48,319 nucleotides of DNA from a virus: positions 1 to 48,319 of the IMG/VR virus record IMGVR_UViG_3300035698_011201. One strand, written 5' to 3'. Numbering within the stretch: the stretch's first letter is position 1; the number at the start of each line of letters is the position of its first letter. The notes beneath the pieces were generated by a model. That model was not told the DNA's origin, did no database searches, and was given only the letters and a program-made list of their open reading frames with translations. This document shows, in pieces, positions 42-40,441 of this stretch. A program made the position numbers and the translations under genes.

Positions 42-347
42 TGATACTGTTTGAAGCTAAACAGAATAGACGCACTGGACCGGGGCGCAATACCCCGCAG
101 CTCCACCAATTGATCAGACGGGTGACTGACACCTTCAAGGTAATGCTTGTATTCAACTTTATGATGATCGCTATGGGGCTGAAATAGGATCGACAGGTGT
201 AGTAAAAGTGAGGTCTAGGTATCCGGGTCAGGCCCGAAACAGGCTGAGAACACAATATTTGCAAACGATAATGACTTTGTAATGGCAGCAGCTGCGTAAG
301 CAGTGAAGCCGGGGTTTTTCCGGGGTCCTAGCAACAGAATCCCCGGA
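42..347 (+). ncRNA. ssrA: Circularly permuted two-piece tmRNA
   Basis: The acceptor piece comes first. A T-arm (CGGGG, 7-base loop, CCCCG) is followed by CAGCTCC-ACCA ending at 108. After 66 spacer bases the coding piece starts at 175 with GGGGCTG, which pairs over 7 bp with CAGCTCC and includes a G3:U70 pair, the alanine identity signal. GAAATAGGATCGAC then matches the tmRNA D-like domain. The tag reading frame begins at GCA 261. A CCGGGG/CCCCGG hairpin (319-347) closes the 3' side. This gene order is the one known for alphaproteobacterial tmRNA, where the spacer is removed to give two RNAs. Ends at 42 and 347 are estimates. The tRNA-like ends and tag make the call firm; function in the phage is inferred. 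Confidence 0.93.
261..299 (+). other. tmRNA proteolysis tag reading frame
   Basis: Thirteen codons encode ANDNDFVMAAAA followed by TAA. The ANDN start is typical of alphaproteobacterial tags and the hydrophobic alanine end is what ClpXP-type proteases recognise in the family. Its end differs from the common LAA/VAA, having four alanines. Confidence 0.9.
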
Positions 348-17597: not shown

Positions 17598-18710
17598 ATG
17601 GAAGTAAAGAAGAGGGATGGAAAACTAGAAGACTTAGATTTGGAGAAGATGCACAAAGTCGTTTTCTGGGCGACAGAAGGAATTACCGGAGTTTCAGCAT
17701 CTGAGGTTGAAATCAAATCACACATTCAGTTCTATTCTGGAATCTCTACTTCGGACGTTCAAGAGACTTTGATCAAAGCCGCAGCAGATTTGATTTCCGA
17801 TGAAACTCCCAATTATCAGTTTGTCGCAGGTAGATTAATTTCTTACCACCTTCGAAAAGAAGTTTACAATTCTTTCGATCCTTGGCATTTACAAGATTTG
17901 GTTAAGAAGAACATTGAGCGTGGATTTTATGATCCGGCATTGCTAGAAGATTACACCGATGAAGAATACAACGTGCTGAACAATTACATCAAGCATGATC
18001 GAGATGAAAATTTAACGTATGTGGCAATGGAACAGTTTCGAGGAAAGTATCTAGTTCAGAACCGTGTCACAAAAGAAGTTTTCGAAACACCGCAGATGGC
18101 TTACATGCTAATCGCAATGAGTTTGTTCTCAGCTTATACAGAAAACAGATTGCAGTGGGTGAAAGATTATTACGATGCGATCTCTACCTTTGATCTCAGT
18201 TTACCTACACCAGTTATGGCCGGCGTCAGAACACCGCAGAGACAATTTAGTTCATGTGTTCTAATTGAGACAGATGATTCACTTGATTCTATGAACGCGG
18301 CGACATCCTCGATCGTGAAGTACGTTTCTCAAAAAGCCGGCATTGGAATTGGTGCCGGCTCTATTCGCGCCTTGGGTTCGCCTATTAGATCTGGCGACGC
18401 ATACCATACTGGTGTGATTCCGTTTTTCAAAATGTTCCAAGCAGCAACCAAGTCTTGTTCACAAGGCGGTGTCCGCGGGGGCTGCGTTTCTTCAGACTCT
18501 TTAGTTGATATTTGTGAGGGAATCGAGATTGATGGTAAAAAATACGGAATGTATGACACAATTTCTATAAATAACAAGGAGGTTAGAATCTTAGATTTAG
18601 TGAATGTTCTAACCGATATGACAAAAGAGGAAATCGAAAATGCATCTATGCAAGATTTGTATGAAAGAAGTGAAGCAGTTAAGAAGACACCTTACAACGA
18701 TGCACAATAA
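17598..18710 (+). CDS. nrdA: NrdA N-terminal part fused to an N-intein
   Basis: Residues 1-295 are the first part of class Ia ribonucleotide reductase large subunit: N-terminal ATP-cone, then FSSCVLIE with the first active-site cysteine, ending ...CSQGGVRGG. At Cys296 (TGC 18483) an intein begins: CVSSDSLVDICEG is a typical block A. The N-intein is 75 aa and the ORF stops at 18710. The remaining NrdA is encoded from 19511, so active enzyme requires trans-splicing. Block B is not in this part but in the C-intein, so the split point lies unusually early. AAGGAG site precedes ATG. Confidence 0.9.
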   Translation: MEVKKRDGKLEDLDLEKMHKVVFWATEGITGVSASEVEIKSHIQFYSGISTSDVQETLIKAAADLISDETPNYQFVAGRLISYHLRKEVYNSFDPWHLQDLVKKNIERGFYDPALLEDYTDEEYNVLNNYIKHDRDENLTYVAMEQFRGKYLVQNRVTKEVFETPQMAYMLIAMSLFSAYTENRLQWVKDYYDAISTFDLSLPTPVMAGVRTPQRQFSSCVLIETDDSLDSMNAATSSIVKYVSQKAGIGIGAGSIRALGSPIRSGDAYHTGVIPFFKMFQAATKSCSQGGVRGGCVSSDSLVDICEGIEIDGKKYGMYDTISINNKEVRILDLVNVLTDMTKEEIENASMQDLYERSEAVKKTPYNDAQ

Positions 18711-19536
18711 AGATATTGATGCCTACCTATCTGAATTTCAATGCCAAGACGAGTTTTGGCAAATTGAAAAGACATTAAAAAGTGAAAGACAAAAGAATAG
18801 TCCTTGGTCAATTCATTTTTATATAACTCGAGGATCCACTGAAAAAGAAGCGGTCAAAATAATTAATGAAAAACGAAGAAAATTGCAAGAAAAGAGAAAA
18901 GGATCTCTCTCACCTGCTAGCGCATATTTTTGGAGAGAAAAAGGATTATCAATAGACGACGCAATTCAAAGAGCCGAAGAATGGAAAAAGAGCATCGGAA
19001 AGCTCCCAACAAAAGCTGCATTGATAGAAAAATATGGAGAAAAGGAAGGTATTAGGAAATGGGACGAGTATAAAGAAAAAATAGCAAACAGAGAAAATAA
19101 AGCACTCGATAATTTGGTATCTTCCGGTTATTCTATAGAAGAAGCAAGGATAATTCGAAGTATGAAGAAAGGTAATACTCTCGCTCCGTTCTTTTGTTGG
19201 GAGTCATATAAAACTTATCGAAAAGCTGTAGATTTTGTTACGCATTTGATGTGGGTTTCTAAAGGCAGAGACTACGAAGATCGAAAGAACAACAAGACAC
19301 TGGACCATCAATTTTCATGTTATGGCGGCTGGGTAGAGAAGGTATCTCCCTTTGTTGTCGGGTCAATTTACAATTTAGAATGGCTTGATAAAAAAGAGAA
19401 TGAAAGGAAGGGTACTTACTGTTCAAAGGCAAAAGACCAATTATTGAAAGAATATACAGAAAATTCGGATAATGAAATTCGTCAGGGTAGTGATATATGG
19501 GAGCAAATAAATGAAATTATTAACGCGAATTGCTAA
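18640..19536 (+). CDS. Free-standing homing endonuclease inside split nrdA
   Basis: 298 aa, between and overlapping the two intein halves (71 bases with N-part, 26 with C-part). It starts with a C2H2-type finger (CKIC...H...H) and ends with a His-Asn motif region, LDHQFSCYGGW...NLEWL...ENERKGTYC, resembling HNH/His-Me homing nucleases of phages. It should cut intein-less nrdA and spread the element. AGAGGA precedes its ATG by 8 bases. The exact nuclease family is uncertain; Vsr-like nucleases are known in comparable split-intein loci. Confidence 0.8.
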   Translation: MHLCKICMKEVKQLRRHLTTMHNKDIDAYLSEFQCQDEFWQIEKTLKSERQKNSPWSIHFYITRGSTEKEAVKIINEKRRKLQEKRKGSLSPASAYFWREKGLSIDDAIQRAEEWKKSIGKLPTKAALIEKYGEKEGIRKWDEYKEKIANRENKALDNLVSSGYSIEEARIIRSMKKGNTLAPFFCWESYKTYRKAVDFVTHLMWVSKGRDYEDRKNNKTLDHQFSCYGGWVEKVSPFVVGSIYNLEWLDKKENERKGTYCSKAKDQLLKEYTENSDNEIRQGSDIWEQINEIINANC

Positions 19537-21307
19537 TATAGCAGACGTCAAAACTGGAGAATATATTAGATCTAGAAATCTCGACGGCGCCGATGAATAT
19601 AAAATGGTAAAAGCTACGATGAACCCAATCGTGCCCGAAAAAAATCAAATCGAAATTGTTCTAGAAAATCAATCCACAATAACTACCAGTCTAGAACATC
19701 CGATGCTAGTTTATAGGGATAGATGGAAGTACATACCGTCGGCCGAAGTAAAAGTGGGTGATATTTGTCAATCATCTGAAGGAGAATCGAGCATTCTGGA
19801 AATCAATCCCGGAAATAAAGATATTCATTTTTGCGATTTTTCAGTTGACGGAAACGAGAACTATTATGCCGGAACTACCGCAAAAATGATGGTAGTCCAT
19901 AATTCTGCAACTCTTTACTATCCAATTTGGCATTTGGAAGTTGAAGACCTATTGGTATTGAAGAATAACAAAGGCACCGAAGACAATCGTGTTCGTCATA
20001 TGGATTACGGGGTTCAGTTCAGCAAATTATTTTATGAACGGTTGATCAAGAACGAAGACGTGACATTGTTCAGCCCAAGTGATGTTCCTGGATTGTACGA
20101 AGCATTCTTCGAAGATCAAGACAAATTCAAAGAATTGTATGAACAAGCTGAGCGTGATCCAAAAGTCAGAAAGAAAACACTCAAAGCGGTTGATTTGTTC
20201 AGCGCGTTTATGGAAGAACGTAAGAACACTGGCCGAATTTACTTGATGAATGTCGACCACGCCAACACGCACAGTTCATTTAAAGAAGAGCTTGCTCCTA
20301 TCCGAATGTCGAATCTTTGCACAGAGATCACGTTGCCAACAAAACCACTCAAGCATATTGCTGATGAAGAAGGGCGCATCGCTCTTTGTACTCTTTCAGC
20401 AATTAACTGGGGCAACGTTCGTTCTCCATCAGACTTTAAGAAACCTTGTGAGTTAGCTGTTAGGGGATTGGATGCGCTTTTGGACTACCAGAAGTACCCT
20501 ATCTTAGCCGCAGAATTACATTCCAAAGAGTATAGACCCTTGGGTATCGGCATCATCAACTTAGCTTATTTCCTTGCTAAGAACGATTCAAACTATTCAA
20601 CTCCTAATTTAGAATTGGTTGACGAGTACGCTGAGGCGTGGTCTTATTATTTGATCAAGGCTAGTGTTGAATTAGCAAAAGACAAAGGCGCTTGCACTAA
20701 AGTCGAACACACCAAATATTCCGACGGTGTTTTGCCTATCGACACATATAAAAGAGACGTCGATGAATTGGTCAAACCAAATTCAAGAATGGATTGGGAT
20801 TCTCTTAGAGAAGACTTGAAAAAGTACGGTATTCGTAATTCAACGCTAATGGCTTTGATGCCAGCTGAGACCAGTGCGCAGATTTCAAACTCGACCAACG
20901 GTATTGAGCCACCTAGAGCTTTTGTCTCGATTAAACAATCAAAGGACGGAGTTCTCAAACAGGTTGTTCCTGGTTACCCTAGACTCAAAAATAAATATGA
21001 GTTGCTATGGGATCAAAAGTCACCCGAAGGTTACTTGAAGATTATGGCTGTTCTGCAAAAGTATATCGATCAAACGATCAGCACCAACACCAGTTATAAT
21101 CCAGAGTTCTATGAAGGTGAGAAAATTCCGATGTCAGTCATGTTGCAGCATTTGTTATTCTGCTACAAATTTGGAATCAAAACTTTATATTATTTCAACA
21201 CCTATGACGGCCAGTCGGAAATTGACTTAGACAAAGAAGAAAGAGATGAAAAAGAAAAGGTATTGATCGAAATTATCGACGATGCCTGCGAAGCATGCGT
21301 AATTTAA
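19511..21307 (+). CDS. nrdA: C-intein fused to NrdA C-terminal part
   Basis: Residues 1-131 are the C-intein, with block B TSLEHPML, block F FSVDGNENYYAG and block G VVHN followed by Ser (19904). The rest is NrdA: ATLYYPIWHLEVEDLL continues the extein exactly after GVRGG. Active-site NLC-E (SNLCTEIT), the redox cysteine in ALCTLSAINWG, the radical-transfer pair TLYYFNT and a C-terminal CEAC thiol pair are present. With NrdB it reduces ribonucleoside diphosphates for phage DNA synthesis. The first extein residue is Ser where unsplit enzymes often have Ala. Confidence 0.92.
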   Translation: MKLLTRIANIADVKTGEYIRSRNLDGADEYKMVKATMNPIVPEKNQIEIVLENQSTITTSLEHPMLVYRDRWKYIPSAEVKVGDICQSSEGESSILEINPGNKDIHFCDFSVDGNENYYAGTTAKMMVVHNSATLYYPIWHLEVEDLLVLKNNKGTEDNRVRHMDYGVQFSKLFYERLIKNEDVTLFSPSDVPGLYEAFFEDQDKFKELYEQAERDPKVRKKTLKAVDLFSAFMEERKNTGRIYLMNVDHANTHSSFKEELAPIRMSNLCTEITLPTKPLKHIADEEGRIALCTLSAINWGNVRSPSDFKKPCELAVRGLDALLDYQKYPILAAELHSKEYRPLGIGIINLAYFLAKNDSNYSTPNLELVDEYAEAWSYYLIKASVELAKDKGACTKVEHTKYSDGVLPIDTYKRDVDELVKPNSRMDWDSLREDLKKYGIRNSTLMALMPAETSAQISNSTNGIEPPRAFVSIKQSKDGVLKQVVPGYPRLKNKYELLWDQKSPEGYLKIMAVLQKYIDQTISTNTSYNPEFYEGEKIPMSVMLQHLLFCYKFGIKTLYYFNTYDGQSEIDLDKEERDEKEKVLIEIIDDACEACVI

Positions 21308-23061: not shown

Positions 23062-23090
23062 TTGACAAACTTATAAATAGAACATATAAA
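23062..23090 (+). promoter_or_regulatory. Strong promoter, overlapping a late core
   Basis: TTGACA 23062-23067, a 17-base spacer and TATAAA 23085-23090 match the sigma70 consensus almost fully. TATAAATA (23072-23079) lies inside the spacer. A second, weaker promoter (TTGACA 23152-23157, 17 bases, TAGTTT 23175-23180) follows, so the region downstream is meant to be transcribed early. Confidence 0.8.
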
Positions 23091-23770: not shown

Positions 23771-23869
23771 ATGGAATCGCAAGAACGAGAACTAAGCGAA
23801 GAACCTGAAGAACGTATCTTCCGGACGACTAATTGGCGGGTCACCAGACTTTCAATCTGGCGGTGGTAA
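23771..23869 (+). CDS. 32-aa ORF ending inside the next tRNA
   Basis: ATG follows a strong AAGGAGGG site by 5 bases. The acidic peptide starts MESQERELSEEPEERIF and its TAA lies in the variable arm of the following tRNA, so translation and tRNA formation from one transcript exclude each other. Expression is likely from the ribosome site; function unknown. Confidence 0.5.
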   Translation: MESQERELSEEPEERIFRTTNWRVTRLSIWRW

Positions 23870-38530: not shown

Positions 38531-38559
38531 TTGACAACAAAGACAAATGACTATATAAA
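38531..38559 (+). promoter_or_regulatory. Promoter for tRNA-Pro copy 2
   Basis: TTGACA 38531-38536, 17-base spacer, TATAAA 38554-38559, also reading TATAAATA-like. Confidence 0.75.
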
Positions 38560-39415: not shown

Positions 39416-39445
39416 TCTTTGGTAAAACTTAACAAGGAGAAAACA

Positions 39446-40441
39446 ATGAGAAGCATTTTACTTGCTGCTTGCATGATTTTGGTTGCAAGCGTCGCACAAG
39501 CAAGAGACCAAATTAGAATTGTGGGATCATCCACAGTTTATCCGTTCTCAACCGCAGTTGCTGAGAACTTCGGAAAAACAAGTCAGTTCAAAACCCCAGT
39601 AGTCGAATCAACCGGATCCGGTGGCGGGCTTAAATTATTCTGTTCTGGTGTCGGTATCGATCATCCAGACATTACAAACGCTAGCCGACAAATCAAATCA
39701 TCTGAGATTAAACTCTGCAAAGAAAACGGAGTGACACAGATTCAAGAAGTTTTGGTTGGATATGACGGCATTGTGATTGCAAACGCAAAGACTAAGTATC
39801 CGATGCATTTGACTGTTCGTGAGCTTTACATGGCTTTAGCAAAATATGTTCCAGATTCAAATGGCGTGTTGCGTGAGAATGAATTCGAAACATGGAACGA
39901 CATTTCGATCCATTTACCGAAAATTAAGATCGAAGTTTTAGGACCACCGCCAACATCAGGTACTCGTGACGCTTTTGTTGAGTTGGTTATGGAAGCTGGA
40001 GCAAAAACATTCCCTTCATTAAAAGAACTACGAAAAACAGACAAGAAAAAGTTCAAAGCAGTAGCGCACGGTTTACGTGAAGACGGCGCTTATGTTGAAG
40101 CCGGTGAGAACGATAACTTGATTATCCAGAAATTGGTAGCTAACCCCAATGCATTAGGTATCTTTGGTTACAGCTTTTTGGAGAACAATTCTGACAAAGT
40201 TCAGGGTTCTGTTATCGACGGAGTAGCACCAACGTTCGACGCTATTGCTGACGGTAGCTATCCGGTTTCCCGATCATTGTTCTTTTATGTGAAAGAAAGC
40301 CACATTGGTAAAATTCCAGGCATGGCTGAGTTTGTTCAAGAATTCTTAAGCGATCAAGCATCTGGCGACTACGGATATTTGGTTGACAAAGGTTTGATTC
40401 CTGTTCCGGCAGGAGATCCTAGAACAAAACAAATTCAATAA
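39446..40441 (+). CDS. pstS: Phosphate-binding protein PstS
   Basis: 331 aa from ATG 39446 (AAGGAG site) with a signal peptide (LLAACMILVASVAQA). RIVGSSTVYPFS, ESTGSGGG and TSGTRDAF are phosphate-binding loops of the PstS family. It would be exported to the host periplasm to feed the host Pst transporter. Phage pstS genes are known in marine T4-like phages. It appears to be under host phosphate control (Pho box upstream). Confidence 0.93.
   Translation: MRSILLAACMILVASVAQARDQIRIVGSSTVYPFSTAVAENFGKTSQFKTPVVESTGSGGGLKLFCSGVGIDHPDITNASRQIKSSEIKLCKENGVTQIQEVLVGYDGIVIANAKTKYPMHLTVRELYMALAKYVPDSNGVLRENEFETWNDISIHLPKIKIEVLGPPPTSGTRDAFVELVMEAGAKTFPSLKELRKTDKKKFKAVAHGLREDGAYVEAGENDNLIIQKLVANPNALGIFGYSFLENNSDKVQGSVIDGVAPTFDAIADGSYPVSRSLFFYVKESHIGKIPGMAEFVQEFLSDQASGDYGYLVDKGLIPVPAGDPRTKQIQ

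Follow-up and report, generated by a model that had tools for sequence, protein, structure and literature searches.

The 48,319-nt stretch of viral DNA that we analysed (IMG/VR record IMGVR_UViG_3300035698_011201; hereafter the window) carries, at positions 3–350, a real and complete permuted transfer-messenger RNA (tmRNA) gene of the alphaproteobacterial type, which is very probably a functional gene of a jumbo phage. The Rfam model alpha_tmRNA (RF01849) matches positions 3–350 over its entire length (model positions 1–355, clade-specific ends included), with 130.3 bits for a cut-off of 50 (E 2.1e-35), and the model tmRNA_permuted (RF04321) matches positions 43–299 with 102.2 bits (cut-off 47). 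Independently, ARAGORN called a permuted tmRNA with the tag ANDNDFVMAAAA; the ends that it proposed, 15–390, were judged too wide. The original prediction, made from the letters of the sequence, had placed a permuted, two-piece tmRNA of the alphaproteobacterial type at 42–347. Both Rfam matches agree with that classification, and these coordinates are correct within a few bases. The prediction had named a poor alpha_tmRNA score as evidence against itself, and the score obtained does not refute it.

The anatomy of the gene can be followed element by element, all on the plus strand. The acceptor piece is located 5' of the coding piece, which is the permuted order. Rfam alignments and a pairing check delimit this acceptor piece to 43–108, the exact mature 5' end being approximate. 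It comprises a T arm (T stem 81–85/93–97, with five of five pairs formed, and T loop 86–92), the 3' strand of the acceptor stem (CAGCTCC, 98–104), A105 and an encoded CCA (106–108). It is followed by an intervening transcribed segment of 66 nt (109–174), between the encoded CCA and the 5' strand of the acceptor stem, whose removal is expected from known permuted tmRNAs. The coding piece (175–350, where the Rfam match ends; the mature 3' end is putative) starts with the acceptor 5' strand GGGGCTG (175–181), which pairs with 98–104 at all seven positions, including G3:U70. The 7-bp acceptor stem with its G:U pair, the T arm and the tag announced by the original prediction are thus all present. 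Next come the D region GAAATAGGATCGAC and a first pseudoknot, PK1, read from the sequence as stems 224–227/233–236 and 228–231/244–247. The tag reading frame (261–299), supported by ARAGORN, the open frame itself and a hairpin, starts at a GCA resume codon, encodes ANDNDFVMAAAA up to position 296 with Ala-Ala at its end, and closes with a TAA codon (297–299) placed in the loop of hairpin 291–304. Finally, the 3' block of the model is retained as a pseudoknot region (309–346), in which CCGGGG at 320–325 (or 309–314) can pair with CCCCGG at 341–346 around the conserved GCAACAGAA. In the window, no match to a riboswitch family was above the Rfam threshold.

A sigma-70-like promoter match, TTGACT-17-TATAAA (7–35, + strand; a pattern match only), ends approximately 7 nt upstream of where the tmRNA is expected to start. 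Sites of the form TTGACW-17-TATAAW are found four times in the window, for 0.07 expected. The −10 element of the site at 7–35 overlaps TATAAATA (30–37), named as the core of T4-type late promoters (PMC9004378), which occurs six times in the window for 1.8 expected. Two of the other promoter-like sites, TTGACA-17-TATAAA at 23062–23090 and 38531–38559, lie just before parts of the tRNA-gene region described below.

The genes that follow the tmRNA identify its genomic context. A phage DNA primase gene (860–1864, + strand; phrog_47, E 2.4e-28), with relatives in Rak2-like jumbo phages, starts 0.5 kb downstream of the tmRNA, in agreement with the claim that the latter is phage-encoded. It is followed by genes for a DnaB helicase, structural proteins, an exonuclease and NrdA/NrdB. 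For the primase, the helicase, one structural protein and the exonuclease, identities of 33–44% were found with the corresponding block in Rak2-like jumbo phages, in Vibrio phage 2.275.O and, for the helicase (40%) and the exonuclease (44%), in Sinorhizobium phage Phosso; the gene order of the replication block is that of Serratia phage BF. The NrdA protein is 58–65% identical to phage homologues. Judging from these genes, the window represents part of a jumbo phage genome with a Rak2-like/Phosso-like replication block. Because the tmRNA occupies the first few hundred nucleotides of the window, one might suspect that it is not phage-borne and that this end of the contig is chimeric or derives from host DNA. 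However, a second contig, L094, contains the identical stretch (3,593 nt of overlap, no differences) with the same flanking phage genes and extends for another 3,474 nt on the upstream side of the tmRNA, and the complete genome of the isolated phage Phosso carries the same type of gene, which makes a non-phage origin of the locus hardly conceivable.

Comparisons among viral loci point to selection on the structure of this tmRNA family. Acceptor pair 5:68 is C-G, G-C, A-T or T-A depending on the locus and remains paired, and T-stem pairs change on both sides. The acceptor stem is fully paired (7/7) in 91 of 93 viral copies, the other two being unreadable (no CCA found, or mis-assigned partner). 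No other sampled phage copy exceeds about 59% identity to the window tmRNA, and the retention of every element at this level of divergence supports selection for a working RNA. Several observations weigh against a functional gene. The PK1 stretch folded alone is no better than shuffled sequences; the program used cannot predict pseudoknots, and fold z-scores computed on parts of the coding RNA carry no information. The tag is short (12 residues) and ends with AAAA rather than the usual ALAA or AQAA. The tmRNA is known here from its gene sequence, and its sole near relative, in L094, is identical, giving no differences with which to gauge selection in this exact lineage. Lastly, no SmpB gene was found in the window (a 48-kb fragment), in the complete genome of Phosso, in BF, in Vibrio phage 2.275 or in two contigs, an absence from the window that is nevertheless expected if host SmpB serves. 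On balance, we regard a functional permuted tmRNA as very likely.

If so, its mode of action would be as follows. Transcription would start near position 42, and host RNase P together with 3' processing would excise the 66-nt intervening segment. The products would be an acceptor RNA (about 43–108) and a coding RNA (175 to about 350), joined through the acceptor stem and P2. The tmRNA would be charged by the host alanyl-tRNA synthetase via G3:U70 and, with SmpB, presumably that of the host since neither the window nor the complete Phosso genome codes for one, would enter ribosomes stalled on broken mRNA. The stalled chain would gain the charging alanine followed by ANDNDFVMAAAA, with release of the ribosome at UAA, and AANDNDFVMAAAA-tagged peptides are the predicted product of tagging. 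The tagged chains would probably be passed to host ClpXP. The benefit for the phage may be that ribosomes stay available during a long infection, as host mRNA is being degraded. Its many tRNA genes accord with this; ARAGORN made 39 calls for them, with Rfam tRNA matches, between positions 23818 and 42220 (+ strand, with one call on the − strand).

The end of the tag is the most unusual feature of the gene. Among the 91 complete tags of the sampled viral loci (31 distinct sequences), 60 end with ALAA and 16 with AQAA, and AAAA was found only in this phage and the identical contig. That contig was also the only match among viral contigs in a scan for tmRNAs with the GAAATAGGATCGAC signature and four terminal alanine codons. 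The original prediction proposed that this end could alter protease targeting. The AAAA end is indeed unusual, but it retains the Ala-Ala-COO- that is most important for ClpX (PMC7652416), and hence a modest change of rate appears likelier than a loss of targeting. A stronger version of this idea is that the phage tmRNA rescues ribosomes but that -AAAA marks proteins for degradation less strongly than the host tag does, with the result that tagged truncated phage proteins last longer, in competition with the host tmRNA. We consider it rather unlikely. The rarity of the AAAA end in the scan and the presence of Ala at position −3 in only one of the 31 distinct viral tags are in its favour, as is the slower degradation of Escherichia coli tag variants such as AAV relative to LVA (PMC11003136). 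Nevertheless, AAV alters the last residue as well and so offers no clean comparison, and position −3 is already variable (L, I, Q) in phage tags. Whatever its effect, -AAAA is a natural tag variant for probing the role of degron position −3. As regards tag length, four viral tmRNAs (L005, L013, L022 and L047) have an unusually long, 29-residue tag, ANDNVSNVFSFVDFGSLKNYVNEDYALAA, and four others (L020, L034, L066 and L079) have a 24-residue tag.

The original prediction also took the tmRNA type as a pointer to the host lineage and suggested that the gene was captured from the host. An alphaproteobacterial host is plausible, because the isolates found with this tmRNA type infect alphaproteobacteria wherever a host is recorded (Ruegeria, Phaeobacter, Rhodobacter, Mesorhizobium and Sinorhizobium). 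However, the type of tmRNA does not prove the host, since phage Melnitz infects OM43, a gammaproteobacterium in the taxonomy of that paper, and yet has an alphaproteobacterial-type gene (PMC9004378). As for capture, two pattern scans of bacterial genomes for a donor gave no match, with exact patterns that may miss true relatives. These empty scans and a best phage match of about 59% give no sign that the gene was recently copied from a sampled host.

A second, truncated locus is present between tRNA genes at 27039–27200 (+ strand). It consists of CGCCTCC-A-CCA (27044–27054), an intervening segment of 127 nt whose ends are complementary, and GGGGGCGAAATAGATTGAC from position 27182. Its acceptor strands pair at seven of seven positions, the third pair being a G:U. 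It has neither T arm nor tag. Its alpha_tmRNA match is weak (14.3 bits), and other places, some of them tRNA-sized, score alike with a tmRNA model; because such low scores arise elsewhere too, the case for this locus rests on the combined signature. In 60 surrogate windows, the fuzzy signature (up to three errors) occurred six times, and once with pairing; this control is less strict than the real site, where CTCCACCA is present in exact form as well. The pattern of this locus was matched by two viral contigs, which we discarded as chance hits, neither having a tRNA or tmRNA call or any Rfam match. Immediately after the locus, at 27233–27309, there is a tRNA-like gene that scores 25.8 bits, under the Rfam cut-off; its anticodon may be ACG, and a D arm is not clearly recognizable.

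We read the locus at 27039–27200 as a putative relic of another permuted tmRNA, because two of its acceptor-stem pairs are not those of the intact copy. A more elaborate scenario would have two permuted tmRNA-derived loci at work: the full one, whose unique four-alanine tag changes what becomes of tagged proteins, and the one at 27039–27200, yielding a minimal RNA of acceptor stem and intervening segment that is still processed and serves as a decoy for SmpB or for the maturation of host tmRNA. We hold this to be very improbable. The second copy also bears on whether the tmRNA at 3–350 is a passive hitch-hiker, i.e. a captured host ssrA decaying in the phage genome, as it suggests that tmRNA fragments persist and decay there. 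Nevertheless, the copy at 3–350 is complete, with stems, tag frame and promoter intact despite strong sequence divergence, and we deem its passive decay very improbable.

Other observations concern the wider neighbourhood. In L094, outside the window and approximately 2.3–3.3 kb upstream of the tmRNA, a region of ~1 kb largely devoid of open reading frames (ORFs; L094:220–1215) folds better than shuffled sequences (z −3.36, 20 shuffles) and has a sub-threshold match to the Proteo-phage-1 RNA. It is possibly a large ornate phage RNA, by analogy with GOLLD beside roseophage tmRNAs; no large RNA family near the tmRNA in L094 was above threshold. At 17598–21307 of the window, NrdA is encoded in two ORFs whose profile matches join at about residue 299, with a 298-residue ORF between them. 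The second NrdA ORF has a weak Intein_splicing match near its start (E 0.0033), and the region resembles a fractured gene that contains a split intein. At 39419–40441, a gene codes for a PstS-family phosphate-binding protein (PF12849, E 1.7e-46; TIGR02136 under its cut-off) and is likely an auxiliary metabolic gene.

Phage-borne tmRNAs of this type are already on record for many phages, both aquatic and rhizobial. One strict pattern retrieved 91 stretches with an alpha-type permuted tmRNA from viral contigs, and the nine examples that were checked scored 104–134 bits on alpha_tmRNA. Seven isolates carry one, namely Phosso, RcXuper, V10, MD18, DSS3_MAL1, DSS3P8 and Cp1R7A-A1; among the isolate records viewed, the tmRNA is annotated only in DSS3_MAL1. 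A nucleotide search of phage records with the tmRNA gene and 20 kb of the window gave no match, nor did a plasmid search. In the literature, 53 two-piece tmRNAs have been reported in phage genomes, 50 of them aquatic and Melnitz included (PMC9004378). Phage two-piece tmRNAs are thus not new in kind, and that of the window, a strongly diverged addition, is an ordinary further example save for its four-alanine tag end; it alters no general view.

Melnitz, a methylophage, and the pelagimyophages also have a permuted alphaproteobacterial-type tmRNA, with, in Melnitz, a predicted glutamine riboswitch in the tmRNA 3' domain that distinguishes it from the window (PMC9004378). The roseophages V10, MD18, DSS3_MAL1 and DSS3P8 and Rhodobacter phage RcXuper have tmRNAs scoring 106–113 bits on alpha_tmRNA, and V10, MD18, DSS3P8 and RcXuper have alphaproteobacterial hosts on record. 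In contrast with the phage of the window, these five are phages of about 146–150 kb, and in four of them a GOLLD RNA is located just upstream of the tmRNA; their tags, read by hand from the sequence, are ANINNAPMEMAIAA, ANTNAAPMEMAIAA and ANENFAPMEMRLAA. The tmRNA of mycobacteriophage DS6A, a reduced phage RNA consisting of the tRNA-like domain only, loosely resembles the locus at 27039–27200, but DS6A keeps that domain whereas the relic lacks even a T arm (PMC4131195).

Closer to the window, the Phosso tmRNA (PV764938.1, 349553–350242, − strand; L095:23151–23840) belongs to a complete jumbo genome, scores 108 bits on alpha_tmRNA and has the same GGGGCTG/CAGCTCC acceptor stem. It differs by its 410-nt intervening segment, its tag ANDNVSTKVALAA and its genome position, about 22 kb beyond the helicase gene on the opposite strand, whereas the window tmRNA is just upstream of the primase gene. 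These positions fit separate gains or moves of the tmRNA. The Phosso gene is unannotated in its record and was missed by ARAGORN. Serratia phage BF and Vibrio phage 2.275 share the replication block and have no alpha-type permuted tmRNA; the standard tmRNA model RF00023 gave only sub-threshold matches on Phosso, BF and 2.275. Sinorhizobium phage AP-J-162 is described as a jumbo myovirus of 471.5 kb that groups with Atu_ph07 and Rak2-like phages and has 66 tRNA genes, one tmRNA and an alphaproteobacterial host; the same paper reports no tmRNA for Atu_ph07 (PMC11242549). The likeness of AP-J-162 is one of published description, covering genome size, clade, gene counts and host. The tmRNA is thus patchy in this phage group, being present in AP-J-162 and Phosso and not in Atu_ph07, BF or 2.275. 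Together, the window, Phosso and AP-J-162 link the tmRNA gene to tRNA-rich jumbo phages of alphaproteobacteria.
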